64,000 nt of DNA from assembly GCA_026713105.1 (NCBI GenBank), contig JAPOPC010000064.1, positions 1 to 64,000 of the forward strand. The letters run 5' to 3'. A program made the translations under genes and the position numbers. The stretch comes from Acidimicrobiaceae bacterium (GTDB lineage Bacteria > Actinomycetota > Acidimicrobiia > Acidimicrobiales > Poriferisodalaceae). Below the pieces are notes generated by a model that was given only the letters and a program-made list of their open reading frames with translations, did no database searches and was not told where the DNA came from. This document shows positions 18,080 to 57,351 of this stretch, in pieces (within the stretch, counting starts at the first letter, position 1; each line of letters begins with the position of its first letter).

Positions 18080-20557
18080 GTGCTGGACGGTTACCGGATT
18101 CTGGACTTGACCGACGACCGGGGGCATCTGGCCGGGATGCTGCTCGCGCAGCTCGGCGCTGAGGTCATTCTCGGTGAGCCGCCCGGCGGGCACCGGACGC
18201 GTCACCGTGGCCCGTACGTCGACGACGTGACGGATCCCGAGCGGTCGATCGAGTTTCTCGTCTACAACCGGGGCAAGCACTCGGTGGTCATCGAGGACTC
18301 GGCGCAGATCGCCCAGCTCGCTGTTCATTGCGACGCAGTCATTTCATGCGGTGCGTTCGATGTCGATCTCGCCGCGCTGCGTGGCGCCAACCCGCAGCTG
18401 GTGACGGCCTCGATCACGCCGTTCGGCGAGACGGGTCCGAAGACCGACTGGGCCGCGACCGACCTCACGATCGCCGCCTCGAGCGGCACCATGTCGCTGA
18501 CCGGCGACCGCGACCGGGCACCCGTACGCATCGGGTCGCCCCAGACGTGGCACAACGGTGCAGTGGACACCGCCGGCGCAATCCTCATGGCACTGCACGA
18601 GCGACATGCGTCCGGCTTGGGCCAGCACGTGGACACCTCAGCCCAGCAGTCGTTCGTGGATTGCACGCAATTCCAGATGATGGCCGTGCTGACCGGCGGC
18701 GAAGTCCCCGTGCGGCTCCCGGGCGCGGTGAACCTAGGCGGCTTCCTGATCCCGTGGGTGTACGAGTGCGCAGACGGCTACGTAACCGTCACTTTCCTGT
18801 TCGGGCCGATGATCGCCCCGTTTACGAGCCGGATCTTGGCGTGGGCGTGCGATGAGGGTTTCTGCGAGCCCGAACTGAGAGACAAGGACTGGGTCGACTT
18901 CGGCATGGCCATCGTGGAAGGCCGCGAATCGATGGACACGTTCGATCAAGCCATCAAGGTCTTGACCTCGTTCGTGGCCACCAAGACGAAGGCGGAGCTG
19001 CTGGAGCGTGCGCTGTCGGACAACCTGCTGATCGCGCCCATCACCACGACCGCCGACGTGCTCGCCCTCGACCACTTGGAGGTGCGCGACTACTGGCAGC
19101 ACGTCGAGATGCCCCGCGCCGACGGTCCCGCGCCGGTTCGGCTGTGCGGCGCACTGGCCAAGTCCACCGGCGAGCCGCTGGTCGATCTGGCGGTCGCACC
19201 GCGGCTGGGCGAGCACGCGGCCCTGTACCTCGACAGCAGCGGCACAGCCGGGCCGGCGATCACTACTCGTCCCCGACCCGACGTGCCGCCCACGGGCCGG
19301 ACCCTGGAGCGCCCGCTCGACGACGTCAAGATTCTCGACTTCATGTGGGCGCTGGCGGGTCCAGGAGCCACCCGCACGCTGGCCGACTACGGCGCCACCG
19401 TCGTCAAGGTCGAAAGCGAGCTGAAGCCCGACGTGCTGCGCGGCGTCCACCCGTTCATCGGCGAAGAAGGCGGGCAGGAGAACGCCCTGCAGTTCCACTC
19501 GATCAACGCCGGCAAGCTCGACTTGACGCTCGACCTGTCACTGCCCGAAGCCCGTGACGTGATCTTGGACCTGGTCGGGTGGTGCGACGTGCTCACCGAG
19601 TCGTTTTCGCCCAAGGCCATGGCGAACTGGGGGCTCACCTACGACGTGCTGCGCGAGGTAAACCCCGAGCTCGTCATGTTCTCGAGCTGCCTGATGGGAC
19701 AGACCGGACCGATGCGCATGTACGCCGGCTTCGGCACGATGGCGGCCGCCATCGCCGGCTTCTACCCGGTGACCGGCTGGCCCGATCGCATCCCGGCGGG
19801 ACCGTTCACCGCCTACACCGACTACATCTCGCCGAAGCTAGGCGTCATGCTCATCCTGTCTGCGCTGGCCGAGCGAGACCGCACGGGCCGCGGACAGCAC
19901 ATCGACTTCGCCCAGATGGAAGGCGCGCTGCACTTCCTGGCGACCGAATTCGCCGACGAAGAGATCAACGGACGCACCGCGGACCGGGCCGGCAACGCCG
20001 ACCGCCACATGAGCCCGCACAGCGTCTACCCCGCGGCTGGCGACGACCGCTGGGTCGCGATCGCGTGCGAGACCGACGCACAGTGGAGCGCGCTGGCCGG
20101 GCTGCTCGCCGGCGCTGCGGGCGAGAACAGCGAACTGGCTGCGGCCCTGGCTGGGCTCGATGCCGGAGCTGGGCTTGCATCGCTCGACGTCGCAGGCCGC
20201 CAAGCTCGCAGCGACGCCATCGACGCCGCGATCACTACTTGGACTGCAGCCCAAGATGCGGCCGACATCGAAGCGACACTGCAAGGCCACGGCGTACCCG
20301 CCCATCGCGTCAACGACGCTGCGGATCTGATGGCCGACCCCCAGATCATCGCCCGGGAGCACTTCTTGGCGGTGCCGCACGCCAAGCACGGCCACACCTG
20401 GGTCGAGAACAGCAATTTCGACCTGTCGCGGACTCCCGGCCGGCCGCTATGGGGCGGTCCGATGTTCGGCGAGCACAACATGGAAGTGCTCGAAGGCATC
20501 CTCGGCTACGACACCGACAAGATCGCCGAGTTGGTCATCGCCGGCGCTCTCACCTGA
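18080..20557 (+). CDS. Two-domain CaiB/BaiF CoA-transferase family protein (fusion 1)
   Basis: An 825-residue protein made of two full CaiB/BaiF units (LDGYRILDLTDDRG at the N-terminus and DDVKILDFMWALAGPGATRTLADYGATVVKVE at about residue 415); family members are usually about 400 residues and dimeric. The C-terminal half keeps the catalytic Asp (AYTDYISP, D581). At the equivalent N-terminal position there is a Trp (SPQTWHNGA, W157). The GTG at 18080 matches the start of its paralogue and has GGGAG upstream; the frame stays open to an ATG at 17990. It is followed by ridA-like and dtd genes. Confidence 0.88.
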   Translation: MLDGYRILDLTDDRGHLAGMLLAQLGAEVILGEPPGGHRTRHRGPYVDDVTDPERSIEFLVYNRGKHSVVIEDSAQIAQLAVHCDAVISCGAFDVDLAALRGANPQLVTASITPFGETGPKTDWAATDLTIAASSGTMSLTGDRDRAPVRIGSPQTWHNGAVDTAGAILMALHERHASGLGQHVDTSAQQSFVDCTQFQMMAVLTGGEVPVRLPGAVNLGGFLIPWVYECADGYVTVTFLFGPMIAPFTSRILAWACDEGFCEPELRDKDWVDFGMAIVEGRESMDTFDQAIKVLTSFVATKTKAELLERALSDNLLIAPITTTADVLALDHLEVRDYWQHVEMPRADGPAPVRLCGALAKSTGEPLVDLAVAPRLGEHAALYLDSSGTAGPAITTRPRPDVPPTGRTLERPLDDVKILDFMWALAGPGATRTLADYGATVVKVESELKPDVLRGVHPFIGEEGGQENALQFHSINAGKLDLTLDLSLPEARDVILDLVGWCDVLTESFSPKAMANWGLTYDVLREVNPELVMFSSCLMGQTGPMRMYAGFGTMAAAIAGFYPVTGWPDRIPAGPFTAYTDYISPKLGVMLILSALAERDRTGRGQHIDFAQMEGALHFLATEFADEEINGRTADRAGNADRHMSPHSVYPAAGDDRWVAIACETDAQWSALAGLLAGAAGENSELAAALAGLDAGAGLASLDVAGRQARSDAIDAAITTWTAAQDAADIEATLQGHGVPAHRVNDAADLMADPQIIAREHFLAVPHAKHGHTWVENSNFDLSRTPGRPLWGGPMFGEHNMEVLEGILGYDTDKIAELVIAGALT

Positions 20558-20608
20558 AACTCTCCGCCAGCCATCCATCGAGTCCGACAATGCCAATGTG
20601 AGGTCCCC

Positions 20609-21019: not shown

Positions 21020-21052
21020 GCTGATTTCTGCACTGCTGCTTACGCTGAGCGA

Positions 21053-21490: not shown

Positions 21491-21523
21491 GCTAGGTAGC
21501 GACCCCGCGGAGCAGCCCTCAGC

Positions 21524-21943
21524 TCAGGCTGGAGTGAAGCGGAGCAGCGCAGGGCCGTCGGGGGTGGGGTCGAAGACCGCTTGCACCGGTTGGCCGATAT
21601 GGACCGTCTCGGGATCGCAGCCGACGATGTTGGTGACCACCCGGGGGCCTTCGTCGAGTTCGACGTATGCCAGGACAAATGGTGCTGCTGCGCGCCAAGA
21701 CCCCGGTATGCGCCGGGTGACCGTGCAGCTGTAGACGGTGCCGCGCCCTGACGCCTCGAACCAGGTCAACGAGGTGCTGCCGCACTGGTCGCAGCGTTCG
21801 CGCGGGTACCACACGACGTGATCGCAATCGTCGCAGCGGGGCAGCTCCAGCCGGTCCTCCGCTGTCGCATCCCAGAACCGCTGCGTCTCAAGATTCGGGT
21901 TCGGCGTCGGGACAGGCAGCCCCGACGGGCCCAACTCGCTCAT
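21524..21943 (-). CDS. DUF35 OB-fold / zinc-ribbon protein (thiolase partner)
   Basis: A 139-residue DUF35 protein: a zinc ribbon (CDDCDHVVWYPRERCDQCG) followed by an OB-fold (GTVYSCTVTRRI, FVLAYVELDEGPRVVTNIVG). The start at 21943 overlaps the upstream thiolase-like stop by 4 bases (ATGA), so the two are translationally coupled. In steroid side-chain degradation the equivalent pair (Ltp2 with the DUF35 domain of ChsH2) forms a retro-aldolase; a similar complex is inferred here. Confidence 0.9.
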   Translation of the reverse strand: MSELGPSGLPVPTPNPNLETQRFWDATAEDRLELPRCDDCDHVVWYPRERCDQCGSTSLTWFEASGRGTVYSCTVTRRIPGSWRAAAPFVLAYVELDEGPRVVTNIVGCDPETVHIGQPVQAVFDPTPDGPALLRFTPA

Positions 21944-23145
21944 GACGACCTCCCCATGACGAGGGTGGCGCTGCCCATGCGGGTGGCGAGGCTGCCGCCG
22001 GTGCCGTGCGCAAGGGCCAGCTCGCAGTCGGGCACCTGCACTGCAGCGTGGGCTTCGCCGCGCAGCTGGCGCACGGCTTCGATCACCTTGGTCATGCCGC
22101 CGCGGTTGGCCGGGTGGTTGTTGCACAGGCCGCCGCCGTCGGTGTTGAACGGCAGCACGCCGCCGGGCGCCTGCAGAGCGCCGTCGGACACGAAGCGCCC
22201 GCCGTCGCCCTTGGCACAAAAGCCCAGATCCTCCAGCGTCATCAGGACCGTGATCGTGAAGCTGTCGTAGATCGACACGTAATCGATGTCGGCCGGCGTG
22301 AGGCCCGCTTCCGCAAACGCCAGCGGACCCGAGCGCGACGCACCGGTGTGGCTGAGATCGATACGACCGCCCGAGGTGTGCTTGATTGACGTGCCGGTGC
22401 CCAGCACCGGCACGCAGTGACGGTCAAGCGACGCTGCGACGGCCTCGCTGACCAGCACCAGCGCTCCCCCGCCGTCGGTGATGACGCAGCAGTCCAACCG
22501 ATGCAACGGATCCGAGATCATCGGCGAGGACACCACTTCGTCCACCGTGACGACATCTTGGAGAAACGCATTCGGGTTGTGCTGTGCGTGCGTCGACGCG
22601 GCCACTTTCACTTCTGCGAGCTGCTCCGACGTCGTGCCGAACTCGTGCATGTGCCGTGCCGCGGCCAGCGCGTAGCCGCCTGGCACCGACATGCCGAACT
22701 GGTTCTCGAACGAGGCCTCCGGTGCCGAGCTGAAACGGGCGCTCCCGCCCGGGCCGGCACCCCCGGTTCGGGGCTTGCCGGCCAGCGTGATCAGCGCCAC
22801 GTTGACGTGTCCGGCGGCAATGGCCGCAGCGGCGTGCTGAGCGTGCACCAAGTACGCCGAGCCGCCGGTCTCGGTGTCGTCGATGTAGCTGCAGTCGAGA
22901 CCGAGGTACTCCACCATCGACAGCGCACCGAATCCCGGAGCGTCGCCCGCCGAGTAGTAGGCGTCGACGTCGCTGAGGGACAAGCCCGCATCGGCAAGTG
23001 CCCCCGCGGCCACCTCGGCGTGAATCTGCGGCAGCGTGCGGTCGGGCAGCTCGCGGCCCGGATGCTCGTACGCCCCGGCGATGAGTGCCTTGCCTCGAAT
23101 CGTCACCGGCGGCACGCTAGTCGCCGCCTCCGTTGCGCTGCCCAA
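21940..23145 (-). CDS. Thiolase-like protein without nucleophilic Cys (Ltp2-like aldolase candidate)
   Basis: A 401-residue thiolase-superfamily protein. The active-site Cys of true thiolases is absent: the segment reads TETGGSAYLVHA (residues 91-102). The second-half features DYVSIYDSFTI and GGLCNNHPANRGG are kept, as in Ltp2-type lipid-transfer/aldolase proteins. It overlaps the DUF35 gene by 4 bases. Probable role: binding acyl-CoA substrates and C-C bond cleavage together with DUF35. A second such pair lies at 49511-51139. Confidence 0.88.
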   Translation of the reverse strand: MGSATEAATSVPPVTIRGKALIAGAYEHPGRELPDRTLPQIHAEVAAGALADAGLSLSDVDAYYSAGDAPGFGALSMVEYLGLDCSYIDDTETGGSAYLVHAQHAAAAIAAGHVNVALITLAGKPRTGGAGPGGSARFSSAPEASFENQFGMSVPGGYALAAARHMHEFGTTSEQLAEVKVAASTHAQHNPNAFLQDVVTVDEVVSSPMISDPLHRLDCCVITDGGGALVLVSEAVAASLDRHCVPVLGTGTSIKHTSGGRIDLSHTGASRSGPLAFAEAGLTPADIDYVSIYDSFTITVLMTLEDLGFCAKGDGGRFVSDGALQAPGGVLPFNTDGGGLCNNHPANRGGMTKVIEAVRQLRGEAHAAVQVPDCELALAHGTGGSLATRMGSATLVMGRSS

Positions 23146-23202
23146 TCATGATGCGCATTGGATCGTCGGTTTGTGGTGGGAGCGAGCGTTAGCTTCGCGG
23201 CG

Positions 23203-25662
23203 ATGCTGAAGCCATATCGAGTGCTGGACCTCACTGACCACCGGGGCGCGATGTGCACCTCGATCCTCGGCTCGCTGGGTGCCGAGGTGATCCTCGTCGA
23301 GGGCCCTGATGGTCGGGGGCGAGACCACCGCGAGCGAGGGCCCGACGGGACGTCGCTGAGCTGGTGGAACCTGCGGCGCGGTGCGCAGAGTTGCGTCATC
23401 GGCGACCGGAACGAGCTCTTGGAGCTCGTCGCCGGCGCCGACGCGCTGATCGAGTCGCCCGGCCCCGGACTCGGCCTCGATTACGACGAACTGCATGCCG
23501 TCAATCCGGGGCTGGTGCATACCACCGTCACACCATTCGGCAGCACGGGGCCCAAGGCCGACTGGGCTGCATCGGATCTCACCATCGCGGCGGCTGCGTG
23601 CAGCGCCGCCATCACCGGCGACGCCGATCGCGCGCCGCTGCGCATCACCGCACCGCAGAGCTGGCTGCACGCCGGTTCGCACGCTGCGGTCGGCACGGCG
23701 CTCGCGCTGCGCCAGCGCGACCGCAGCGGCTATGGCCAGCACGTCGACATCTCGGCGCAGCAGGCGATGATGCAGACGGCATTCCCCGGAATCATCCACG
23801 CTCCCAACGAGTACCCGTCGGCCCGGAGAACCTCCGGCGGGATCCTCTTTCTCAACTTCCACCTGCAGTTCGTGTATCCGGCGTCGGATGGCTATGTCTC
23901 CATCACACTGCTGTTCGGCGACACCATCGGTCGATTCACCAAGCGGCTCATGGACTGGGTGCATGAGAGCGGCTGCTGTGACGACGAGCTCGCGGCACTC
24001 GATTGGGTCGACTTCGGAATGCGCATGTTCACCGATCCTGAAGTTGCACCGGGCCAACTTGAGCAAACCAAGGCTGCCATCACCCGCTTGACGAGCACGC
24101 GGACCCGCGCCGAATTGTTCGCAGAAGCGCAGCTTCGTGAACTGCTGCTCGCACCCGTCTACACCCCAGCTGAGCTGACCGAGGTGGAGCATTTCGCCGA
24201 GCGCGGCTACTGGGATGCGGTTGCCGATCCTGCCTGGGGCAGCGTGATCACCCCCGGCGCTTGGTGCAAGCCCAGCAGCACTCCGCTTCGTTCCCTCGGC
24301 GCCCCGCCAGTGCTCGGTGCGGACACAGCAGCCGTAAAGGCGAAGCCGCGTTCGGCGCTGCTGGACGCCGCGGAACAGCTGCGAGACGGCGGCGGCGATC
24401 CTTCGAGCCCAAGGCCGCTCGAGGGAATCAAAGTGCTCGACACGTCCTGGGTGTACGCCGGGCCGTTCGCGACTCGGGTGCTCGCCGACTTCGGCGCCAC
24501 CGTCATCAAGGTGGAGGGACCGGCACGATTCGACGCCGCGCGCGGCAGCGGAGGCGGCTTGAAGGGCGACATGGGGCCTGACGCATCGATCCAGTACGGC
24601 ACGCTCAACGCGGGCAAGCTCGGCGTGACCATCGATCTCAACACCGCCGAGGGCCGCGAGGTGCTGTGCGACCTGGCGGAGTGGGCCGACGTCTACGTCG
24701 AGTCGTACACCCCTGGCACCCTCGAAGACTGGGGCATCGGCTATGAGACGCTGTCGGCTCGCAACCCAGGCCTCATTCTGTTGAGCACCAGCCTGATGGG
24801 TCAGACCGGACCGCTCGCCACCTTTGCCGGCTTCGGCAATCTGGCCGGTGCGATCACCGGCTACTACGAGATGACCGGCTGGCCGGACCGGGCGCCGGCG
24901 GGACCGTTCCTCGCCTACACCGACTACGTCACCCCGCAGTACATGGTGCCGCTGCTGCTAGCCGCGCTCGACGCCCGCGACGCCGATCCGGAGGGCAGGG
25001 GCCAGCATCTCGATTTCGCGCAGGCCGAGGCAGCAGTGCACTTCCTTGCGACCGAGGTACTCGAACACACGGTCAATGGAACCGCTTCCACTCGGATGGG
25101 CAATGCTGATGCCTTCCTGTGCCCCCATGCGATGTACCCGTGCGATCCCGGCGACACCGATCCGGACAACCCCATCGAGACGCCGGAGCGGTGGATCGCC
25201 GTGGTTTGCGAGACCGAGCACCAGTGGGAAGCGCTGTGCCGCCTGCTGGAGCACGACGGCCAACCCGTGCCGTCGGATCTCGCCGGCCTCGACACAGCAG
25301 GACGCCTCGCGCGCAGTACAGAAGTCGACGCCGCCGTCGCGGCGTGGGCCGCCGTGCGCACATCGACTCAGGCCCAAGCCGCGCTGCAGGCCGCAGGCGT
25401 CCCCGCACACGCCAGCCAGAACAGTCTCGGCTGCTTCGCCGATCCGCAGCTGAGCCATCGCGGCCATTGGATCGACGTCACCCATCCAGTGCACGACCGC
25501 ATGATCGTCGAGGCGCCCCGCCTGCAGCTCAGCGCGTCACCTCACGAGGTCACCAGATCGGGGCCAAGCCTGGGCGAGCACAACGACCTGATCCTGCGAG
25601 ACATCCTCGGCTACGACGACGACCGCATCGTCGAGCTCGCAGTGGCCGGCGCTATCGGCTGA
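23203..25662 (+). CDS. Two-domain CaiB/BaiF CoA-transferase family protein (fusion 2)
   Basis: An 819-residue tandem CaiB/BaiF protein closely related to fusion 1. The N-terminal unit begins MLKPYRVLDLTDHRG; the second begins EGIKVLDTSWVYAGPFATRVLADFGATVIKVEG at about residue 408. The catalytic Asp is present only in the C-terminal unit (AYTDYVTP, D574); the N-terminal counterpart is Trp (APQSWLHAG, W154). The ATG at 23203 is preferred by homology over 23158. It is divergent from the thiolase-like gene and followed 32 bp later by the CinA-like gene. Confidence 0.88.
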   Translation: MLKPYRVLDLTDHRGAMCTSILGSLGAEVILVEGPDGRGRDHRERGPDGTSLSWWNLRRGAQSCVIGDRNELLELVAGADALIESPGPGLGLDYDELHAVNPGLVHTTVTPFGSTGPKADWAASDLTIAAAACSAAITGDADRAPLRITAPQSWLHAGSHAAVGTALALRQRDRSGYGQHVDISAQQAMMQTAFPGIIHAPNEYPSARRTSGGILFLNFHLQFVYPASDGYVSITLLFGDTIGRFTKRLMDWVHESGCCDDELAALDWVDFGMRMFTDPEVAPGQLEQTKAAITRLTSTRTRAELFAEAQLRELLLAPVYTPAELTEVEHFAERGYWDAVADPAWGSVITPGAWCKPSSTPLRSLGAPPVLGADTAAVKAKPRSALLDAAEQLRDGGGDPSSPRPLEGIKVLDTSWVYAGPFATRVLADFGATVIKVEGPARFDAARGSGGGLKGDMGPDASIQYGTLNAGKLGVTIDLNTAEGREVLCDLAEWADVYVESYTPGTLEDWGIGYETLSARNPGLILLSTSLMGQTGPLATFAGFGNLAGAITGYYEMTGWPDRAPAGPFLAYTDYVTPQYMVPLLLAALDARDADPEGRGQHLDFAQAEAAVHFLATEVLEHTVNGTASTRMGNADAFLCPHAMYPCDPGDTDPDNPIETPERWIAVVCETEHQWEALCRLLEHDGQPVPSDLAGLDTAGRLARSTEVDAAVAAWAAVRTSTQAQAALQAAGVPAHASQNSLGCFADPQLSHRGHWIDVTHPVHDRMIVEAPRLQLSASPHEVTRSGPSLGEHNDLILRDILGYDDDRIVELAVAGAIG

Positions 25663-25694
25663 ATGCCGAATTGGCCCGCGAAAGGAGTCAACAC

Positions 25695-26290: not shown

Positions 26291-28813
26291 TTACCGGAAC
26301 AGGCCCTCGCCGATGCCTTCGGCGATCTCGTCGGGCGCGTAGCCGGCGTCGGCCCAGACGTCGAAGTTGTGCTCTCCCAGGTAGGCCGGGCTGAGATGGC
26401 GCGGGTACCAGCGCTGACCGTTCCAGAGGCCGGCAAACGCGTCGACCGTCCGCTCGCCGAATACCGCATGGTCCACCGGCTGCCAGAAGCCGCGAGCCGC
26501 GTGCTGGGGATCGTCGGCGAACAGCTGGTGTGAGTTCTGCACCGGTCCCGCGGGGACGCCTGCAGCCTGCAGCGCCTCGGCTGCCGCCGTGGCTGTTCGG
26601 CCGGCAGCCCACTCCCCCAGCACAGCGTCGATGATGGATCGGCGGTCGCGGCGGCCAGCTTCAGTGGCGAGCGTCGGATCATCTAACCGAGGGTCGCCGA
26701 GCAGCCCTATGAGCCCCAGCCACTGCGCCGGCTCGGTCACCGTCACGGCCACGAAGCCGTCGGTGCAGGCATAGACCTCATTGGGCACATGGTCGGCGAT
26801 GCCGTCGCGGTTGCCCTCGGGGCGCGGAGGCGACACGCCGGCGGACTGGCGGATCACCGCAGCGCCTATCGCGTAGGTGCCGACCTCGAGCTGCGCCATG
26901 TCGATGCGTTGCCCTTCACCGGTGCGCTCTCGGGCATACAGGGCGCCGACTGTTGAGACCGCTGCGGCGAACCCCGCCAAGTGGTCATTGAGCGAGAAGC
27001 CCGGACCCACGTCGCCGCGGTCGGCGAAGTTGGTCAGGTGGGTGATGCCGCACACTGCGTGCACCGTCGGCGCATACGAGATGACGTGGCGCCAGGGTCC
27101 GTCGTGACCGCAGCCCGACATCGTCACGTAGACGAGCCGCGGGTTCCACTCGTGCACGGTTTCCCAGTCGAGGCCCCACGAGTCCAGCACCCCGGCGCTG
27201 AAATTCTCGATGAGCACGTCGCACGTCTCGATCAGCCGTCGGGCCGCAGCCAGCGCGTCGGGATGCTTCATGTCGAGCGTGGCACTGCGCTTGGAACGGT
27301 TCCACACGAAGTAGTAGGGGAAGTCGGGGGAGTTGACGAGAGTGGAACGTTCCTCGCTCTGGATGCGGATGACGTCGGCACCCAGATCACCGAGCAGCCT
27401 TGTGGCAGACGGCCCGGCAAGCACCCAGGTGAAGTCGGCGACGCGGATGCCGTCGAGCGGCCGCCGGTCACCCTCGGGCACATCTGAGGCTTCGCCGATC
27501 GGGTCGGCGGTGTCGCTCACCATCTCACCTGCGGCGTCGCGGCCAGTGTCGCCATTGCGGGCCTCGGTGGGCGGCGCCGCCCATGACGCGAGCACCTCGT
27601 CGAGGGGCGTGTCGACGCTGGCGGGCGGACTCGGCGGCACCGCGCCCGACCGGCCCGCGTCGCTCCAACGAACCAGCCGGCTCGGCACCCGCACCGGGCC
27701 GCGAGGGCCGGTCGCCGCGCGGTCCACTATTCGTGAGCCGTTCGCGGCCGCCCCGCCCGGTGGCAGGACGTCGGCAAAGAACCCACGATGCCCGAACTGC
27801 GGGTTCGCGCTGACTTCGGCGATCTCCAGCACCCCGCCGAAGGCCACATGCCGTTCCTGCGCCTCCCACCACACCTCGCGCGCATCTTGGGGCGCGATCC
27901 AGCGCCGGACCGCGTCCATCACCTCGGTCACATCCAGCAGCACATCGGCCGGATCTGCACCGAGCCACCGCTTCACTTCGTCGAAACCGGTTTCGACCAT
28001 CCACTCGAACAGCAAGTCGGGCGTCGGCGTCGGCGTGATCATGACGTAGCCGCCTTCGCCGCCGTGGCACTCGGCCAGGTCGTAGGCACCGAGCCAGTGC
28101 AGCGCACCCTGGCGCGGTGCCACCTTGGGCAGCGGCAGCGCGTCGTCGAAGAAGTACTGCATGAACAGGTTCTCGATCGAACCGGTGACGGTCTCGTGGA
28201 TGGACAGGTCGACGTGCGCCCCCCGACCGGTCGAGCGCGCCGACAGTGCCGCCCCAACCCCTGACGTCGCGGCCACGAATCCGGTGTAGTTGTAGGCTTG
28301 GCGGCCCCACACGTTGAGCGGGCGATCGGCCAGGCCTGTCAAAGCCATCATCCCGCCCATGGCGGCAGCCACGAGATCCGAGCCGAGCCAGTGCGCCCGC
28401 GGGCCCGTCCGTCCGAAGGGCGTGATCGATACCTGCACGAGAGCCGGATTGCCAGCGCTCACATCGGCGTAATCGATGCCCAATTCGGCCAGCCGGCCTG
28501 GACGTTCGGTCTCCACGATCACGTCGGCTGCCGCGGCCAGCCGGCGGTAGGCATCCCGACCTTCGGCGGAGCTCACATCCAGGCGGCAACGGCGCTTCCC
28601 GCCGTCATACCACCAGTCCGCAACGCCGCCCAGCGCAGCGGAGGCCGGGTCAGCCAGCGGCAAGCCCGGCGAGCCGGCGCCCACCCTCACCACATCGGCG
28701 CCCAACTCGCTCAGCAGCTTCGTCGCGAATCGACCCGAATCACCGGTCAGGTCGACCACGCGCAGGCCCGACAGCGCCCCGTGCACCACCGAGGGGTCCA
28801 GGTTCTGGCTCAT
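26291..28813 (-). CDS. Two-domain CaiB/BaiF CoA-transferase family protein (fusion 3)
   Basis: An 840-residue tandem CaiB/BaiF protein. Unit 1 begins LSGLRVVDLTGDSGRFATKLLSELGADVVRV; unit 2 starts near residue 448 (DGIRVADFTWVLAGPSATRLLGDLGADVIRI). The C-terminal unit keeps the catalytic Asp (SLNDHLAG, D610); the N-terminal unit has Asn/Tyr (AYNYTGF, N175). A Pro/Ala/Asp-rich linker joins the halves. Copy B of the interspersed repeat lies upstream in the same orientation. It catalyses CoA transfer between acyl-CoA and a free acid, or possibly racemisation; substrates unknown. Confidence 0.88.
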   Translation of the reverse strand: MSQNLDPSVVHGALSGLRVVDLTGDSGRFATKLLSELGADVVRVGAGSPGLPLADPASAALGGVADWWYDGGKRRCRLDVSSAEGRDAYRRLAAAADVIVETERPGRLAELGIDYADVSAGNPALVQVSITPFGRTGPRAHWLGSDLVAAAMGGMMALTGLADRPLNVWGRQAYNYTGFVAATSGVGAALSARSTGRGAHVDLSIHETVTGSIENLFMQYFFDDALPLPKVAPRQGALHWLGAYDLAECHGGEGGYVMITPTPTPDLLFEWMVETGFDEVKRWLGADPADVLLDVTEVMDAVRRWIAPQDAREVWWEAQERHVAFGGVLEIAEVSANPQFGHRGFFADVLPPGGAAANGSRIVDRAATGPRGPVRVPSRLVRWSDAGRSGAVPPSPPASVDTPLDEVLASWAAPPTEARNGDTGRDAAGEMVSDTADPIGEASDVPEGDRRPLDGIRVADFTWVLAGPSATRLLGDLGADVIRIQSEERSTLVNSPDFPYYFVWNRSKRSATLDMKHPDALAAARRLIETCDVLIENFSAGVLDSWGLDWETVHEWNPRLVYVTMSGCGHDGPWRHVISYAPTVHAVCGITHLTNFADRGDVGPGFSLNDHLAGFAAAVSTVGALYARERTGEGQRIDMAQLEVGTYAIGAAVIRQSAGVSPPRPEGNRDGIADHVPNEVYACTDGFVAVTVTEPAQWLGLIGLLGDPRLDDPTLATEAGRRDRRSIIDAVLGEWAAGRTATAAAEALQAAGVPAGPVQNSHQLFADDPQHAARGFWQPVDHAVFGERTVDAFAGLWNGQRWYPRHLSPAYLGEHNFDVWADAGYAPDEIAEGIGEGLFR

Positions 28814-29015: not shown

Positions 29016-29732
29016 CTAATCGAACGCGGCCGCCATGAAGTTGCGGTACAGCTGCTCGGCATCGGCGGCGAAGCCGTCCATGCAGCGGTCGGCGTCAGCC
29101 GCCAGCGCGTCCAGCGAGCCGGGGCCGAGGGTGGACTCCAAGGCGTCGCGGTACGCGTCGATGGCACCCCAGTTCCGCACGGTGTCGTCCTCAACTTCGA
29201 CGTGGTACTGCATCGACCACGCCCGCTGGCCCACGCGCATCGCCTGGACGCGGCACTCGGGGGAACTTGCGAGCACGACGGCGTCGTCGGGCGGCTGCGC
29301 GACCTGCACCGAATGCCATTGCAACGCGTGCTGGCGGTCGCCCATCTGGTCGAAGATCGAGTCGTCCCGGCCTTGCGGTGTCAGATCAACCGCTAAAACG
29401 CCGATCTCGGGCGGGCGCTGGGGGCCGCATGTGCCGCCGAGCGCGTCGGCCAGCAGTTGGTGCCCCAGGCACAGCCCAAGGAAGGGTCGTTGCAATTCAC
29501 GCACCCAGTGACGTATGGCCTGTTTCTCCGGCACCAGCCAGGGACACTCCTCCACATCCCACACGTCCATCGGGCCGCCCATGACCCACATCGCGTGGAA
29601 GTCGTCCAGCGGCGGGATGGGTTCGCCCTCGTCGAGTTCCACCGCCGTCCACTCGACGCCGTCGTCCCGCAGGAAGTCGCGCAGGCGGCCGGGATGCTCG
29701 CAGTCGATGTGCTGAAGAACCAGGAGCCGCAT
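29016..29732 (-). CDS. Class I glutamine amidotransferase-like protein
   Basis: A 238-residue GATase1 protein resembling GMP-synthase-type amidotransferase homologues. The nucleophile Cys is C88 in FLGLCLGHQLLADALGG, and the catalytic His-Glu dyad is in SMQYHVEVED. The oxyanion region is MWVMGGPMDVWD. The ATG at 29732 (MRLLVLQHID) is chosen over an earlier start. It has no synthetase domain and no obvious partner; such stand-alone proteins may act as gamma-glutamyl hydrolases. It lies 32 bp downstream of a serine hydrolase gene on the same strand. Confidence 0.87.
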   Translation of the reverse strand: MRLLVLQHIDCEHPGRLRDFLRDDGVEWTAVELDEGEPIPPLDDFHAMWVMGGPMDVWDVEECPWLVPEKQAIRHWVRELQRPFLGLCLGHQLLADALGGTCGPQRPPEIGVLAVDLTPQGRDDSIFDQMGDRQHALQWHSVQVAQPPDDAVVLASSPECRVQAMRVGQRAWSMQYHVEVEDDTVRNWGAIDAYRDALESTLGPGSLDALAADADRCMDGFAADAEQLYRNFMAAAFD

Positions 29733-29764
29733 CGCCCCTGTTGCTACCACGTCTGCGGAGGCGG

Positions 29765-30904
29765 TCAGCCAGGCGTGGTGCAGAGCCCTGCCAAGCTGCC
29801 AATCGCGGTGTCGCGGCGAGGCTGGCGAACCTCGTGCTCGTCGTAGCCGTTGGTGGTGTAGCCCAACGACAGACCGGTGGCTGGATCACCCCAGGCCAGC
29901 TGGCCGCCGGCACCGTTGTGACCGAAGGCCATCGGCGACACCGTGCGGCCCAGCCCTCGCATGTTCGACATGCCGTCGTCGCCTGCCAGGAAGAGCCCGA
30001 TCGAGCGGTTGGCCGGCATGCCCATCGGGTCGGGCATCGTGTTGCGCACCTCGCCGGTGCCGACGGCCAACATCTCGGGGTCCCACAGTTCGTCGGGGTT
30101 GCCGAGCAGGCCTTGGTAGAAGAGCGCCAGGTCGACCGCAGTGCCGAACCCTCCGCCACCGGGCACGCCCACCTCGCGCACCGATGGCTCGTTGAAGCGC
30201 AGGATCGCCTCGTTGGTGACCTCGGTCATGGGCAGCTCGCGCACGCCGAACGTCGCCTCGAGCTCGTCAGGCGTTGCCGGTTCGCCCACGAGGATCAGCT
30301 CCGCGATGCCGTCCTGATCCTCTGGTGCCAAGCCCAGCATGCGGGGCAGTCCCAGCGGCTCGGTGACCCTGTCGTGCACCTCGTCGCGGAAGTCGTTGCC
30401 GGTGACCACATTGATGATCTCGGCGAGCACCCAGTGCGCAGAGGTCGGGTGGTATTCGTACCGGGTGCCGGGTTCCCAATTCAGCCGCCAGTTCGCCATG
30501 GCGACCAGCCGCGAGTCTGAGGTGTCCCATTCCGGCGGCTTCAGCGGAGCGTGCGGGAAGCCTGACGTGTGCAGCATCACCTGTTCGACGGTGATCTGGT
30601 CCTTGCCGTTCTCGCCGAAGGCCGGCACGTAGCTGGCAGCCGTCGCGTCGAGATCCACCAGGCCTTCGCTGATGAGCTGCCACATCGTCGATGCCACGAA
30701 TGGCTTGGTGGCCGAGAAGATGCAGTAGCGGGTCTCGTCGGTGGCGTCGCCGTAGGTGGCCTGCGCAACGATCTCGCCCTCGAAGCCGACGGCCACCTGG
30801 CAGCTCGGCAGCAGCCCCGATTCGACCTCGCGCTTGCAGCGGTCGAGCAGCGCGTCGAGGCGGGATGGTTGGACAGTGGATGGGGCGTCAGTTGTAGTGC
30901 TCAC
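29765..30904 (-). CDS. Class C beta-lactamase-fold serine hydrolase
   Basis: A 379-residue beta-lactamase/EstB-type hydrolase with the catalytic SxxK as SATK (S64, K67) and a late HNGAGGQLAWGD stretch at the KTG-equivalent position. No signal peptide, so a cytoplasmic esterase is more likely than an antibiotic-resistance enzyme. The start is GTG (MSTTTDAPSTV). A homologous but distant paralogue lies at 62381-63532. Its neighbours belong to CoA-ester catabolism. Confidence 0.88.
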   Translation of the reverse strand: MSTTTDAPSTVQPSRLDALLDRCKREVESGLLPSCQVAVGFEGEIVAQATYGDATDETRYCIFSATKPFVASTMWQLISEGLVDLDATAASYVPAFGENGKDQITVEQVMLHTSGFPHAPLKPPEWDTSDSRLVAMANWRLNWEPGTRYEYHPTSAHWVLAEIINVVTGNDFRDEVHDRVTEPLGLPRMLGLAPEDQDGIAELILVGEPATPDELEATFGVRELPMTEVTNEAILRFNEPSVREVGVPGGGGFGTAVDLALFYQGLLGNPDELWDPEMLAVGTGEVRNTMPDPMGMPANRSIGLFLAGDDGMSNMRGLGRTVSPMAFGHNGAGGQLAWGDPATGLSLGYTTNGYDEHEVRQPRRDTAIGSLAGLCTTPG

Positions 30905-30964: not shown

Positions 30965-31045
30965 GAGGCTGAGCCGAATGGCGAAGCCGTGGCCCGAGCG
31001 GCCCGTGAGCGCAATCGCATGAGACAGGGAACATGAGCGGGAAGC
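30965..31045 (+). repeat. Interspersed leader repeat, copy C
   Basis: Third copy, with GAGGCTGAG, GCGAAGCCGTGGCCCGAGCG and AGCGGGAAGCA. It has a few more substitutions and an insertion-like difference after GTGAGCG. It ends about 15 bp before the LLM oxidoreductase start and points toward it. Confidence 0.8.
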
Positions 31046-31059
31046 AGCAGGGGGGCGCA

Positions 31060-41548: not shown

Positions 41549-41549
41549 C

Positions 41550-43769: not shown

Positions 43770-43776
43770 GCACCCG

Positions 43777-46516: not shown

Positions 46517-47545
46517 TCAGTGGCCGCCGCCCTCGACGGCTTCGCGCACCCGCGGGATGACGTTGCGGGCCAGCCGTTCAAGCGATGCGTTGAACAGCGA
46601 CGGCGCCATACCCGGCGAGGCACCCCACGTGCACACGTCGGTGAAGCCGTAGCGCGTGATGAAGTCGACCAGCTCGGCGACGCAGTGGTCCTCGTCACCG
46701 ACGATCCAGTTCTGGGGAATCGCGCCCTTGTCGGGGTCGAAGGCGGTGAACTCGTCAGGCGTCTCGGCGAAGAACTTGGCATACACGCCGAGCCGGTAAC
46801 GCTCTGCCGCCTTGATGGGGTTCCACTCCCGCTCGGCGTCGTCGGTTACGAACACCGAGCGGATGATGCCCACCCGGTAGTCGTCGGGGTCGCGGCCCGT
46901 CGCTCGCAGCTCGTCCTTCCACGGATCCATCACCACCTCGGGTGCGCCTTGGGGCAGCAGATGCGTGTCGAAGCGAGCAGCCCGCACCGCCGCATTCGCG
47001 CTCATGCCTGCGATCCACAGCGGCGGACCCCCGGGCTGCACCGGCGCAGGCGTCACCAGCAGGTCGTCGAAGTGGTGACGCTTGCCGTGGAAGCTGAACG
47101 GCTCTCCCTTCCACGCCAGGCGAAGGATCTGCACCAACTCCTCGGTCAGCGACACCCGGCGCGACTGCGGGATGCCGAAGCCCCGGAACTCGTGAGCCGC
47201 GTAGCCCATGCCGATGCCCAGCTCGATGCGCCCGTTCGAGATGTTGTCGAGGATCGCCAAATCCTCGGCCAGCCGGATCGGATGGGCGAAGGGCGCCAGC
47301 AAGATGTCGGTCGACAGGCGGATGCGGGACGTGCGCGCCGCCACCGCTCCAGCTATCGGCACGAAATTCGGCAGGTGGCCGTCGTCGAGGAAGTGGTGCT
47401 CGGTGAACCATCCGAGATCGAAGCCCAGCTCGTCGGCCATCTCGAGCTGATCGAGCGCCTGGGCGTACATCTCCCGCAGAGGCACCTCGCTGCCGGGAGG
47501 GCTGCGCAGATCGTGGACGACACCGAATCGCAGGGGTAGAGGCAT
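46517..47545 (-). CDS. LLM-class flavin-dependent oxidoreductase
   Basis: A 342-residue luciferase-like enzyme: LRFGVVHDLRSPPGSEVPLREMYAQ, ELGFDLGWFTEHHFLDDGHLPNF, IRLSTDILLAPFAHPIRLAEDLAILDNISNGRIELGIGMGYAAHEF and VQPGGPPLWIAGMSANAAVRAARFDTHLLPQG. It is more distant from the two long LLM paralogues. It is divergent from the Baeyer-Villiger monooxygenase gene, with inverted repeats in the shared upstream region. Confidence 0.88.
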   Translation of the reverse strand: MPLPLRFGVVHDLRSPPGSEVPLREMYAQALDQLEMADELGFDLGWFTEHHFLDDGHLPNFVPIAGAVAARTSRIRLSTDILLAPFAHPIRLAEDLAILDNISNGRIELGIGMGYAAHEFRGFGIPQSRRVSLTEELVQILRLAWKGEPFSFHGKRHHFDDLLVTPAPVQPGGPPLWIAGMSANAAVRAARFDTHLLPQGAPEVVMDPWKDELRATGRDPDDYRVGIIRSVFVTDDAEREWNPIKAAERYRLGVYAKFFAETPDEFTAFDPDKGAIPQNWIVGDEDHCVAELVDFITRYGFTDVCTWGASPGMAPSLFNASLERLARNVIPRVREAVEGGGH

Positions 47546-47739: not shown

Positions 47740-49437
47740 ATGCCAGCAGCAGCGACCAACGGAACCTCGAACGGCAGCGCCGCAGGCGAGCCTGAGTACG
47801 AGGTCATCATCATCGGCGCCGGCGTGGCCGGCATTTACCAGATGTACCGGCTGGCCGAGCGCGGCGTCCACGCGACCGTGCTCGAGATGGGCAGCGACCT
47901 CGGCGGCACCTGGTTCTGGAACCGCTACCCCGGCTGCCGGTTCGACTCGGAGAGCTACACCTACGGTTACTCGTTCTCCGACGAGCTGCTCGACGAGTGG
48001 CACTGGAAGGAACGCTTCTCGGGCCAACCCGAGAACCTGCGCTACCTGAACCACGTCGCCGACAAGTTCGACCTGCGCAAGTACATGCAGTTCAACTGCA
48101 CCGTCGAGACTGCACACTTCGACGACGACGCCGGCATCTGGCGCCTGCACCTCGGCGACGGGCGTGACCTGAGCTGCCGATTCCTGCTCACCGCCCTCGG
48201 CCTGCTGTCCGCGCCCACCTATCCCCGCATCGAGGGCGTCAACGCCGACGGCACCGACGTCTTCGAAGGACCGTCGTTCCACACGTACCACTGGCCCGCC
48301 GAGCCCGTCGAGATCAAGGGCAAGCGGGTTGCGGTCATTGGCACCGGCGCGACAGGCGTGCAGGCCATTGCCGCCATCGGCGAGCAAGCCGAGCACCTCA
48401 CGGTGTTCCAGCGGCGGCCCAACTGGTGCGCCCCGCTGCACAACAGCGAGATCTCCGACCAGGAGATGGACGGCATCCGCGCCCGCTACGACGAGATCTT
48501 CGACAAGTGCGCACGTACTCCAGGCGGGTTCGAGCACGAGCCCGACCGCCGCGGCTTCTGGAACGTGACACCCGAAGAGCGACGGGCGATGTGGGAGAAG
48601 CTGTACGGGGAACCGGGCTTCGGCATCTGGATGGCCAACTTCCGCGAGATCTTCTTCGACGAGAAGGCCAATGCAGAGCTGTCGGCCTTCATCGGCGACA
48701 AGATCCGCGATCGGGTCGACGACCCGGTCATCGCGGAGAAGCTCATCCCCACCGACCATGGCTTCGGCGTGCAGCGGGTCCCGCTCGAGACGCGCTACTA
48801 CGAGACCTACAACAAGCCCAACGTGAACCTGGTGGACATCAAGGAAACACCGATCACCCGCATTACCCCGACCGGCATCGAGACCACCGAGCAGCACCAC
48901 GAATTTGATCTCATCGTGTACGCCACCGGCTTCGACGCCATCACCGGCAGCTTCGACCGGATCGACTTCCGGGGCTCGGGCGGCGTGGCACTGCGCGACA
49001 AGTGGGGAGACGGGCCGGTCACCTACATCGGCCTGATGGTGAACGGATTCCCGAACCTGATGACCATCGCCGGGCCGCAGAGCGGCTCAGCGTCCACCAA
49101 CTACCCGCGCGGCATCGAGATCGGTGTCGACTGGGTGACCGGCATGCTCGACTACGTCTGGGAGAACGGCTACACCCGCTTCGAGGCCGACCAAGACGCC
49201 GAGCGGGAATGGACCAACCACGTCATCGAGATGTACTCCATGATGCTGATGCGCAAGGCGCAGGGCTGGTTCACGGGCTACAACTCGAACGTCGACGGGC
49301 ACGAGAAGGGCACGATCCGCTATCTCGTGTACAACGGCGGCGCTCCGAAGTACAAGCGCCGCATCGACGAGATCGCCGATCACGACTACGACGGCGTGTC
49401 GTTCGCGACCCAGCGCACCGCAGTCGGCGTCGGCTGA
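47740..49437 (+). CDS. Baeyer-Villiger monooxygenase (FAD/NADPH)
   Basis: A 565-residue type I BVMO converting cyclic or linear ketones to esters or lactones. It has the FAD Rossmann GAGVAG (26-31) and the exact BVMO fingerprint FxGxxxHxxxWP (F175, G177, H181, W185, P186 in FEGPSFHTYHWP). The NADPH Rossmann GTGATG lies at 201-206, and YATGFDAITG is near the C-terminus. ATG with GGGGG upstream. It is followed 73 bp later by the thiolase-like/DUF35 pair, consistent with a ketone or steroid-like degradation route. Confidence 0.94.
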   Translation: MPAAATNGTSNGSAAGEPEYEVIIIGAGVAGIYQMYRLAERGVHATVLEMGSDLGGTWFWNRYPGCRFDSESYTYGYSFSDELLDEWHWKERFSGQPENLRYLNHVADKFDLRKYMQFNCTVETAHFDDDAGIWRLHLGDGRDLSCRFLLTALGLLSAPTYPRIEGVNADGTDVFEGPSFHTYHWPAEPVEIKGKRVAVIGTGATGVQAIAAIGEQAEHLTVFQRRPNWCAPLHNSEISDQEMDGIRARYDEIFDKCARTPGGFEHEPDRRGFWNVTPEERRAMWEKLYGEPGFGIWMANFREIFFDEKANAELSAFIGDKIRDRVDDPVIAEKLIPTDHGFGVQRVPLETRYYETYNKPNVNLVDIKETPITRITPTGIETTEQHHEFDLIVYATGFDAITGSFDRIDFRGSGGVALRDKWGDGPVTYIGLMVNGFPNLMTIAGPQSGSASTNYPRGIEIGVDWVTGMLDYVWENGYTRFEADQDAEREWTNHVIEMYSMMLMRKAQGWFTGYNSNVDGHEKGTIRYLVYNGGAPKYKRRIDEIADHDYDGVSFATQRTAVGVG

Positions 49438-50683: not shown

Positions 50684-50719
50684 GACTTCTCCGAGGAGCT
50701 CGCAGATGAGGCCAATGCA

Positions 50720-51139: not shown

Positions 51140-51269
51140 GCGGCCGATCAACACAGCTTCACCGATCAGCGCTGAGTACTCTCCGGCCGTCGCGAACTGG
51201 AGCCTTGGCCCGGTTCCGTTTCGTTGTCTGAACGCCAGGCAGCGCTGTACTCGGAGGATCTCCCTGCCC

Positions 51270-53540: not shown

Positions 53541-53553
53541 CAGTTCGCAGCCG

Positions 53554-53576
53554 GAGTCGGCCCAGACGGCCGACTC
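53554..53576. terminator. Bidirectional terminator, CoxL-like / MFS
   Basis: A perfect 9-bp stem GAGTCGGCC/GGCCGACTC with loop CAGAC, in the 34-bp gap between convergent genes and reaching into the MFS stop. Confidence 0.6.
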
Positions 53577-54753: not shown

Positions 54754-54951
54754 GCTAGTTCCGCGCCGCTGAATGGGCCGCTCTGGCCTGATTGTCGGGG
54801 ATGGCGTGCTGGCGCAGCGGCCGCGTGGACCTCGCGCTTAGCATCGCCTGCACGGCATGCCGGCGGGGCCCGCCTGCTCACGGGGGGAGAGCGAGCGACC
54901 CCGCCGGGTGCACGACACAGCACGATCTGGCCGAGCGCGCGGGGGTGAGGC

Positions 54952-57351
54952 ATGACGGCAGAAACGTCGGTGCCCTCTGGTCAGTCCACGCCCGCACACC
55001 CCAATGCCGGACTGGCTCATGTGCGAGTCCTGGAGCTTTCCGGAAGCGTGGGAGTTGCCTGGGCAGCGAAGCTCTTCGCCGATCTGGGCGCCGATGTCAT
55101 TCGCGTCGAGGACGGGCGCGATGTGGTCCGATCGCGGCCCCACGATGTCCATCGTTGGCTGAACTCCAACAAGCGCTCCGTCTGGTCACTGAACGATGAG
55201 CTGATCGGCGACGCCGATCTGGTGATACACGATCGCCGCGATATGGCCGATCTGACGCAGCAGAACAGCCGGCTCGTCGTGCTGGCCATCACCCCGTTCG
55301 GGCTCAGCGGGCCCTACGCGCACTACGAGGCCGCTGAGATCAACGTCATCCACGGGTCCAGTTGGGGGAACCTGTCCCCGGGGGGTGCCACCGATCCAGA
55401 CCTGCCGCCGCTGAAGGCGCCAGGCCATCACGCCAACATCAACGTGGCCACAGTCGCCGCGATCGCGGCCCTCGCGGCAACCGAACGAGCCGCCGTGAGC
55501 GGCCAGGGCGAGCACATCGATTTCGCGGCCGTCGCGGCGTCGGCCAAGATCACCGAAGTCGCTCCTGCCGCAGTCTCGTTCCTGGGCGTGGAGGCCTCCC
55601 GGCTCGGCACGCGCACGGTGGTGCCGTGGCGAATCTTCCAATGCACTGACGGGCTGCTTCAGCTCATCTGCCCCGAGCAGTCACAGTGGGAGTCTTTCGT
55701 TGAGCTCATGGACTCCCCCGAGTGGGCATCACTCGAAGTGTTCGCCACCGGACCTGATCGCACCCAGAACTCTGATGTCATCAACGTGTACTTGGAGGAG
55801 TGGTTCGCTGACCAGCGCGCCGACGACATCTACCACGACGCTCAGGCCGCTCGTATCGCCGTGACGCCGGTGAACACGATGGCACAGCTCGAAGCCGACG
55901 AGCACTTCGCCGAGCGCGGTTTTTTCGCCACAACGCCTGATGGGCTGAAGCTGCCGGGACCGGGGTTCCAGATCGATCAGCCGTGGTGGAATCTCGCTGC
56001 AGAGGCACCCGACGCGGGTGCCCACGAAGGCGAAAGCTGGCGGCACAGAACCGCCGGGGCCGAACGTGCCGAATCCCCCGCGGGAACCAACAGCACCGCT
56101 GCGGCAGCTCCGGGGCGCCGCCCGCTGGAGGGGGTGCGGGTCTGCGATTTCACCTGGATCTGGGCCGGTCCGTTCTGCACCCAGATCTTGGCCCACCTTG
56201 GGGCTGACGTCGTCAAGCTCGAGTCCCCCGACCACTTGTGCATGTTCCGGCGGCTGCCGCTGAGTCCGCCTGACAGCCCGGCGACACACGACACCTCCGG
56301 CCTGTTTCAGCTCTACAACTCCGACAAGCGCAGCGTCGGCATCGACTTGTCCCACGCCGATGCCGCAGAGGTTGTCGCACGCCTCGTCGCCGTCAGCGAC
56401 GTAGTGGTCGACAATTTCGGCGTCGGTGTCATGGAGCGGCTCGGCTTCGGCGTAGAGCAATTGCGTGCCATCAACCCAGACGTCGTCATCGCCACGCTGT
56501 CGGGCTATGGCAGCACCGGCCCCAATGCGGACTATGTGGCGTACGGACCTGCTGGCGGAGCGTTCGCCGGCCTGTATGCCTCCAACGGATACGAGGACGG
56601 CCCGGCGTTCGAGACCGGCGTGGCCATCGGTGATCCGTGCACCGGGATCACCGCCGCATGGGCGGTGGTGGCATCGCTCGCCGCTCGCCGTCGCAACGGC
56701 GTCGCCGCCACGATCGACGTCGCCATGGCGGAAGCCGTCGCCGCCACAGTCGGCGAAGGCTGGATGCAGTACCTCGCGGACGGCCGATCGCCCGCACCCA
56801 TCGGCAACCATGATCCGATCTGGTCGCCTCACAACTGCTACCGGGCCCGAGGCGACGATCAATGGGTCACGATCGCGTGCACCGACGAGCCCATGTGGCA
56901 TTCGCTGTGCGCAGTCGTGGACGCCGGGCTTGCCCAGCGGCCGGAATTCGCCAACGCTGCTGATCGCAAGCGGAACGAGGCCGAGCTCGACGCCGCGATC
57001 TCGGCGTGGACCCAGACACGAGATCGCTGGCAGATCACCGACGAGCTGCAGGCCGCCGGCGTGAACGCCTTTCCATCGGTGACGTCGCATGAGGTGTGGA
57101 CTGGCGACGCCCACTTCGAGGCCATCGGCATGCTCGAACGGCCTCACCACCCGCTCACCGGGGACCGGGTGGTGCCCGGCATCCCATGGCGATTGAGGGA
57201 CGGACCCAACGGACTGCGACGCCCTGCACCGCTGCTCGGTGAGCACACCGTCGAGGTTCTGACCGAGGTGTTGGGTTTCGCGCCTGACGCGGTGCACGAG
57301 CTGATTGCCCGTGGAGCAGTTCGGGTGCCCGCCACGGCGCAGGCCGATTGA
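54952..57351 (+). CDS. Two-domain CaiB/BaiF CoA-transferase family protein (fusion 4)
   Basis: A 799-residue tandem CaiB/BaiF protein, more diverged than fusions 1-3. Unit 1 starts LAHVRVLELSGSVGVAWAAKLFADLGADVIRVEDG; unit 2 begins near residue 390 (EGVRVCDFTWIWAGPFCTQILAHLGADVVKLE). The catalytic Asp is D561 in VAIGDPCTG in the C-terminal unit; the N-terminal equivalent is His (GHHANIN, H159-H160). ATG with GGGGGTGAGG upstream. Followed by a carboxylesterase gene. Confidence 0.87.
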   Translation: MTAETSVPSGQSTPAHPNAGLAHVRVLELSGSVGVAWAAKLFADLGADVIRVEDGRDVVRSRPHDVHRWLNSNKRSVWSLNDELIGDADLVIHDRRDMADLTQQNSRLVVLAITPFGLSGPYAHYEAAEINVIHGSSWGNLSPGGATDPDLPPLKAPGHHANINVATVAAIAALAATERAAVSGQGEHIDFAAVAASAKITEVAPAAVSFLGVEASRLGTRTVVPWRIFQCTDGLLQLICPEQSQWESFVELMDSPEWASLEVFATGPDRTQNSDVINVYLEEWFADQRADDIYHDAQAARIAVTPVNTMAQLEADEHFAERGFFATTPDGLKLPGPGFQIDQPWWNLAAEAPDAGAHEGESWRHRTAGAERAESPAGTNSTAAAAPGRRPLEGVRVCDFTWIWAGPFCTQILAHLGADVVKLESPDHLCMFRRLPLSPPDSPATHDTSGLFQLYNSDKRSVGIDLSHADAAEVVARLVAVSDVVVDNFGVGVMERLGFGVEQLRAINPDVVIATLSGYGSTGPNADYVAYGPAGGAFAGLYASNGYEDGPAFETGVAIGDPCTGITAAWAVVASLAARRRNGVAATIDVAMAEAVAATVGEGWMQYLADGRSPAPIGNHDPIWSPHNCYRARGDDQWVTIACTDEPMWHSLCAVVDAGLAQRPEFANAADRKRNEAELDAAISAWTQTRDRWQITDELQAAGVNAFPSVTSHEVWTGDAHFEAIGMLERPHHPLTGDRVVPGIPWRLRDGPNGLRRPAPLLGEHTVEVLTEVLGFAPDAVHELIARGAVRVPATAQAD

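Follow-up and report, generated by a model that had tools for sequence, protein, structure and literature searches.

Four double CaiB/BaiF genes of an Acidimicrobiaceae genome look like one-chain variants of the BbsEF-type CoA-transferase with a single predicted active site

Results

The locus and its genes

The window analysed here is a 64,000-nucleotide stretch of an Acidimicrobiaceae genome (contig JAPOPC010000064.1), and it contains four long genes in which two CaiB/BaiF domains follow one another in one reading frame (Table 1). In a Pfam search, each of the four ORFs had CoA_transf_3 (PF02515) matches in two stretches, with whole-protein scores of 483.5-502.8 bits against a curated cut-off of 23.3, in agreement with the original prediction of four double-domain fusions. 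All four are single ORFs without stops, and not two separate subunits as in the heterodimeric enzyme BbsEF. The description of the genes as tandem was not upheld: fusion 3 lies on the opposite strand, and fusion 4 is 26 kb away from fusion 3.

Table 1. Genes and matches of the window, with the residues of each fusion half at the Asp site and at position 140 (Frc numbering for the columns, own numbering for the residues).
Feature	Position	Strand	Remarks
Peptide-type ABC transporter: two permeases and SBP_bac_5 binding protein	14159-17919	-	Divergent from fusion 1
Fusion 1	17990-20557	+	855 aa from the longest ORF (original prediction: start at 18080); N-half E-type, W187 at Asp site, D158 at 140; C-half F-type, D611 predicted nucleophile, G582 at 140
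Thiolase-like gene	21940-23145	-	Divergent from fusion 2
Fusion 2	23158-25662	+	834 aa from a TTG start (counted from 23203, the residue numbers are those of the original prediction); N-half W169/D140; C-half D589/G560
Fusion 3	26291-28813	-	840 aa; N-half Y174/D146; C-half D610/A581
Class-I glutamine amidotransferase-like and beta-lactamase-family genes	29016-30904	-	Just upstream of fusion 3, same strand
Luciferase-like (PF00296) monooxygenase gene	31033-31992
Luciferase-like (PF00296) monooxygenase gene	39266-40498
Weak PF23169 (HalD, halogenase D) match	41490-42449		31.3 bits against a cut-off of 26
Luciferase-like (PF00296) monooxygenase gene	46517-47545
FMO-like gene	47740-49437		Pentalenolactone D synthase model match below cut-off
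Fusion 4	54952-57351	+	799 aa; N-half N162/E129; C-half D561/G532
Carboxylesterase-family gene	57466-58998	+	Downstream of fusion 4
Luciferase-like (PF00296) monooxygenase gene	61082-62335

The four luciferase-like genes lie within 32 kb, and the genes scanned in the window also include a P450, two thiolase-like genes, an AMP-binding enzyme and members of the esterase and beta-lactamase families. The pentalenolactone D synthase model matched by the FMO-like gene is one of the Baeyer-Villiger type.

The catalytic Asp is confined to the C-terminal half

At the column of Asp169 of Frc, Asp was found in all four C-halves and in none of the four N-halves of the window fusions, and the site letters were identical in the MAFFT and HMM alignments. 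This is the central claim of the original prediction, and it was confirmed; its D581, D574, D610 and D561 are D611, D589, D610 and D561 of the longest ORFs, the starts used for its numbering being 30 and 15 residues downstream in fusions 1 and 2. Its list of N-half residues (Trp, Trp, Asn and His) was right for both Trp and has to be replaced by Y174 and N162 for the third and fourth, since the Asn is the residue after Y174 and the His lies 2 or 3 residues before N162. An acid from elsewhere at the N-half site had also been considered: none occupies the Asp169 position, but one is present at position 140 in all four N-halves (Table 1), and the nucleophile is not restored by it.

The same arrangement extends over the whole genome, in which 67 PF02515 matches were found. 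Among the 16 fusions with both halves readable, Asp stands in 16/16 C-halves and 0/16 N-halves, and 21 of the 21 single-domain PF02515 genes examined carry it; therefore, the Asp-in-C-half pattern is not a matter of chance. One more fusion of the genome (C87) is broken by a frame change, and two neighbouring pairs (C13 and C51) are split.

The two halves match the two subunits of BbsEF

The N-halves of fusions 1, 3 and 4 and the C-half of fusion 1 were searched against the PDB by sequence. Chain A of entry 9FN0 was the best match for the three N-halves (5.8e-35, 6.1e-37 and 5.3e-22, respectively), and chain B of the same entry was the best match for the C-half (3.9e-61). The entry belongs to BbsEF, the succinyl-CoA:(R)-benzylsuccinate CoA-transferase (9FN0 and 9FOL), in which one subunit resembles each fusion half; we take chain A to be BbsE and chain B to be BbsF, and we call the partner without Asp E and the one with Asp F. 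An AlphaFold2 model of fusion 1 built with 38 sequences was confident in both halves (pLDDT 91.8, pTM 0.93), with pLDDT below 50 only at residues 1-27 and 418-426, and the BbsEF chains were hits 1 to 3 when the model was searched with Foldseek. The pseudo-heterodimer with one live half that the original prediction had proposed thus agrees with the matches of the halves and with the predicted model.

BbsEF also shares the residue pattern. As counted from printed alignments, the two entries being known here by their titles and chain alignments, only one of the chains has the Asp (D178 in chain B, with Tyr171 at that place in chain A), and the acid at position 140 belongs to the other (D142 of chain A, G149 of chain B). 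A CoA adduct of D178 is named in the title of 9FOL, and the residue of chain B that aligns with D611 of fusion 1 is number 178. All four window fusions have this pattern of Asp in one partner only and acid at 140 in the other partner only. BbsEF consists of two separate chains and has one known substrate, whereas the window fusions are single chains with many paralogs; they look like a fused variant of the BbsEF-type heterodimer, and not like BbsEF itself, as far as their sequences go.

A reciprocal residue rule in E and F partners

For a broader comparison, 296 domains were aligned, most of which had been found with fusion-1-based queries. They came from the own genome and its relatives, from a sample of the phylum and from plasmids, and from E. 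coli references together with 80 named loci. Asp169 was present in 79/79 fusion C-halves; of the N-half rows covering the site, 74/79 were without Asp and 5/79 had it, and one more row was gapped there. The pair set consisted of 124 pairs (74 fused and 50 split; the fusion C33 described below was left out of the E and F counts). In Frc numbering, Asp169 occurred in 124/124 F, 8/124 E and 26/26 single-domain rows, and an acid at position 140 in 0/124 F, 112/124 E and 19/26 single-domain rows. The homodimeric family III enzymes (Frc/YfdW, YfdE and CaiB) have the same fold and the same catalytic Asp as the fusions but, unlike them, two equal active sites.

The two partners also differ at Frc positions 75, 98 and 104, which we link to the CoA phosphates. 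At least one K, R or H at these columns was found in 39/124 E, 89/124 F and 26/26 single-domain rows, so that no basic residue was present in 85/124 E and 35/124 F rows. Part of this assignment comes from passages of the MCT paper (PMC9196870).

The rule was also examined in a hold-out set of 29 phylum-sample loci found with fusion 4 and seven plasmid loci (one of them found via fusion 1), which gave 54 domains and, after removal of 8 near-copies of training rows, 46. With classes assigned by profiles in which the two site columns were masked, and with some rows close to each other, F rows had Asp in 14/14 and the acid at 140 in 0/14, E rows had a residue other than Asp in 11/14 and the acid in 12/14, and single-domain rows had both in 18/18. 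Some E-type halves or genes (L133, L140, L150, L187, L191, L221 and others) have Asp or Glu at the nucleophile position; the E-type rows with Asp may represent an ancestral state or enzymes with two sites.

Descent of the halves and of the fused form

The trees described here held no BbsE or BbsF rows. In a FastTree of 291 rows with the site columns kept (C81_C, two C87 pieces, L113f0_C and L182s1 were left out as short), one clade (99) held 124 of the 126 N-half, E-gene or Asp-less rows. Three split genes that have Asp were also in this clade, and C-half, F-gene and single-domain rows were absent from it. The F rows formed a separate clade (98) without single-domain rows. The N-halves outside the E clade were those of C33 and of a DddD candidate from NGR234, and their C-halves were likewise outside F.

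A more careful tree of 91 rows was made with the site columns masked and with the C101b halves, RhoqE, RhoqF and Ec_CaiB removed. F was one clade (100/94), and E without RhoFus_N (30 of 31 rows) was supported at 99/86. In only 34% of 200 bootstrap trees did all 31 E rows stay together as one clade; a constraint to this effect was not rejected (AU p 0.562, with a likelihood higher by 2.87). On this tree, E needed two changes, owing to RhoFus_N, and F one. On a quick 96-row tree, E was one side of a branch with support 78, and F needed two changes, where a long row strays and long branches meet.

The fused and split states were then placed on a quick E+F tree of 124 rows (LG+G4, SH-aLRT support). 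They required 23 changes, at least 18 of them forced by starred branches, a count that does not tell fusion from fission. Fusions 1 and 2 fell into an all-fused 24-row clade (97, starred) of actinobacterial, mostly Acidimicrobiia, MAGs and genomes of the order of the window; fusions 3 and 4 lay elsewhere, the former grouped with a Dehalococcoidia fusion (87, not starred) and the latter with a proteobacterial one (93, not starred). With 23 changes and the window fusions in three places, one ancestral fusion for all four, which the original prediction had put forward for a phylogenetic check, is not favoured. The E part came first in 74/74 E-F fusions, and the gene order in 41 split pairs of named contigs was E-F in 34 and F-E in 7. 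In annotated plasmids there are split E-F pairs whose genes overlap, and many named contigs have the two genes side by side.

Two further fusion loci of the genome are worth describing. At 103864-108979 of contig C32 (L063), the fusions C32a and C32b are adjacent on the same strand and lie together in a starred clade of five rows (100) of the E+F tree; they probably arose by tandem duplication, unlike the genes of the window. The fusion C33 (L073), with both halves outside the E and F clades, is a third, unrelated fusion type in this genome. Asp169, the three basic residues and an acid at 140 are all present in its C-half; in its N-half, the Asp site is occupied by Ser.

DddD was considered as the parent family of the fusions. 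According to excerpts of the respective papers, it is one chain with two CaiB domains (PMC7174347) that couples CoA transfer and cleavage (PMC8163506), and NGR234 carries dddD (PMC3338564). The candidate found on S. fredii pNGR234b (L105), whose identity as DddD is putative, has Asp only in the C-half, as the fusions do. Unlike the window fusions, both of its halves lie outside the E and F clades, a tree position that speaks against DddD as the parent; the basic residues that bind CoA are retained in its N-half, and an acid stands at 140 in the N-half as well as in the C-half. The layout that it shares with the fusions probably arose independently.

Copies in the genus, family and order

The original prediction had read four fusions in 40 kb as a lineage expansion, and PF02515 candidate counts across the genus, family and order support this. 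In a first look that gives candidates and not confirmed genes, with at most 36 per genome scored, 47-71 candidates were counted per genome in 11/11 genomes of the genus, the own genome included. Among the other genomes of the family, 9/14 had 46-83 candidates and the remaining five had 13-39; in other families of the order, 14/16 genomes had 24 or fewer, and two had 53 and 63. Among sequences with a named source, Acidimicrobiales/Acidimicrobiia MAGs are the best relatives of the fusion-1 type, which makes an acidimicrobiial actinobacterium the most likely owner of the genome.

Constraint on the domains of each half

Evolutionary rates were compared between orthologs of the genus, with 8, 9, 10 and 6 sequences for fusions 1-4, the window included. 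Two partial sequences (L232 and L243) were omitted, as were two fusion 1 orthologs from two genomes of the genus (L040 and L042), which have one in-frame TAG each. Two composites were defined, a live one of the C-half large and the N-half small domain and a dead one of the N-half large and the C-half small domain. The omega values of the live and dead composites were 0.054/0.152, 0.127/0.161, 0.089/0.142 and 0.095/0.152 for fusions 1-4, point values from pairwise counts that are not independent and that cover whole domains rather than pocket residues. The live composite was slower in 4/4 ortholog sets, in fusion 2 only slightly, and an earlier test of fusion 1 with segment limits set by hand gave the same picture.

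At the level of single segments, none was slower than the large domain of the C-half in fusions 1 and 3, and in fusions 2 and 4 this domain came close to the slowest. The N-half small domain (about residues 236-332 in fusion 1; omega 0.069-0.211) was slower than that of the C-half in 3/4 sets, the exception being fusion 3 (0.211 against 0.155). The acid at 140 of the N-half was constant among the compared orthologs of all four fusions, and the N-half residue at the Asp site was constant save for one Tyr-to-His in fusion 3. All segments of the fusions are under purifying selection among the genus orthologs.

Over the whole family, the picture is different. The mean identity of the large domain was 0.389 in E and 0.378 in F, and that of the small domain was 0.339 in F, 0.258 in E and 0.257 in single-domain rows, a small-domain contrast that also held in those matched bins of large-domain identity that had enough pairs. 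The expectation that the parts of the dead site are less conserved over the whole family was therefore not borne out, and it holds only between close orthologs. A GN..PH loop and an Arg at the Frc 301 column are kept in F and mostly lost in E. In YfdE, as an excerpt of PMC3720670 describes, a GNxH loop lies opposite the Asp of the partner, and the F loop would, by alignment, be its counterpart.

Discussion

Taken together, the fusions are, with good confidence, family III CoA-transferases of the BbsE-BbsF type in which one chain carries an E-type and then an F-type partner, with one live site and an N-half that probably selects the acid. This reading is based on how the domains are arranged, on the residues at the two sites, on the positions in the trees, on the pattern of constraint and on a confident whole-chain model. 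One chain would fold on itself as an interlocked pair, in the way that separate subunits do; we infer this interlock, and which domains form the live and the dead site, from printed structures of homologs. In the family geometry, as far as excerpts of three structure papers describe it (PMC9196870, PMC3720670, PMC10967716), the small domain of the partner is placed in the active site, and the live site should therefore consist of the C-half large and the N-half small domain, and the dead site of the N-half large and the C-half small domain. Catalysis would take place at one site only. There, the large domain of the C-half is expected to bind the CoA thioester, and its Asp would take first the acyl group and then CoA, while the small domain of the N-half would close over the site and probably select the acid. 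The mirror site, without a nucleophile and without most of the basic residues that bind the CoA phosphates, may have been retained as a structural partner site. In a homolog, UctC, an Asp-to-Ala change is reported to have left no detectable activity (PMC3720670).

The original prediction called the N-half degenerate, which is true of the missing Asp169 and not true in the sense of decay, as its large domain is as conserved as that of the C-half. We regard the N-half as a maintained partner and probable specificity lid, and not as a relic; the dead pocket is possibly a structural or regulatory site. The small domain of the N-half changes slowly from ortholog to ortholog and quickly from paralog to paralog, as would be expected of a specificity element. 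A specificity role is therefore assigned to it, and the earlier suggestion of a specificity domain is plausible. In a more far-reaching proposal, which seems rather unlikely, an ancient duplication split the two acids (Asp169 to F and that at 140 to E), and the E-large/F-small site, unable to transfer CoA, would be a conserved pocket with a job of its own, be it in regulation, in the release of products or in a further chemical step. The joining into one chain, gained or lost many times, would then multiply matched pairs as a toolbox for acid activation.

Other explanations of the same data have to be weighed against the one-chain BbsEF-type enzyme. That the N-half is an inert scaffold, which holds the fold and has no say in specificity, would fit a half without the Asp and with few CoA-binding basic residues, but it seems unlikely to us: its small domain is constrained between orthologs over the omega range given above, it is on average the least similar domain when E rows from different pairs are compared, and the partner's small domain sits in the active site in the printed structures, as excerpted (PMC9196870, PMC3720670, PMC10967716). 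It is also quite unlikely that the N-half site is a second working site, in which the acid at 140 would be the base for a lyase, hydrolase or isomerase step after CoA transfer. Coupled transfer and cleavage have a precedent in DddD, as an excerpt of PMC8163506 reports; the acid is found in 112/124 E and 0/124 F rows and is constant among the orthologs of all four fusions, the E large domain is conserved like that of F, and the F small domain is well kept family-wide. Against this stand the 85/124 E rows with none of the three basic CoA-phosphate residues and the faster change of the N-large/C-small composite, compared with the live one, between orthologs. It is very improbable that the fusions are acyl-CoA racemases or isomerases and not transferases: alpha-methylacyl-CoA racemase (AMACR) shares the fold, but at the column that we take to be that of its His126 none of the eight halves has His (Phe, Phe, Tyr and Tyr in the C-halves and Thr, Ser, Ser and Ala in the N-halves of fusions 1-4), and the best PDB matches with a named function are transferases.

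With the one-chain BbsEF-type reading, the fusions likely serve in the activation of varied carboxylic acids by CoA transfer, as judged from their sequences, and the many versions in the cell would probably put CoA on acids that come from its monooxygenases and esterases. A comparable combination is described, in a paper on refractory dissolved organic matter (PMC5395668), for SAR202 genomes, which have expanded flavin monooxygenases and expanded CaiB/BaiF paralogs, some of them DddD-like; the proliferation of the latter is read there as a sign that many acyl compounds are used. In this large class of CoA-transferase pairs, the sequence lets one tell the catalytic half from the half that probably selects the acid, and what looked like an oddity becomes a rule whose residues can be tested. 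Such a rule would help to assign substrates to the many CaiB/BaiF paralogs of marine bacteria like SAR202 and of this actinobacterial family.

Already known were BbsEF, whose entries show a heterodimer with the Asp restricted to one of its chains, and DddD, which has two domains in a single chain. Within the literature searched, which had most subscription journals outside its scope, no paper describing fused BbsEF-type enzymes was recognised, and the fused E-F form, the reciprocity of the two acids, the recurrent switching between fused and split states and the rate pattern are new in this sense; the lineage expansion likewise adds to the known BbsEF kind. In public records, the fused forms stand under the plain name CoA transferase. 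At three loci (L095, L099 and L216), split E-F pairs lie beside a gene for a thiolase (or lipid-transfer protein) and one for an OB-fold protein, a neighbourhood that resembles what we take to be the layout of the bbs operon.
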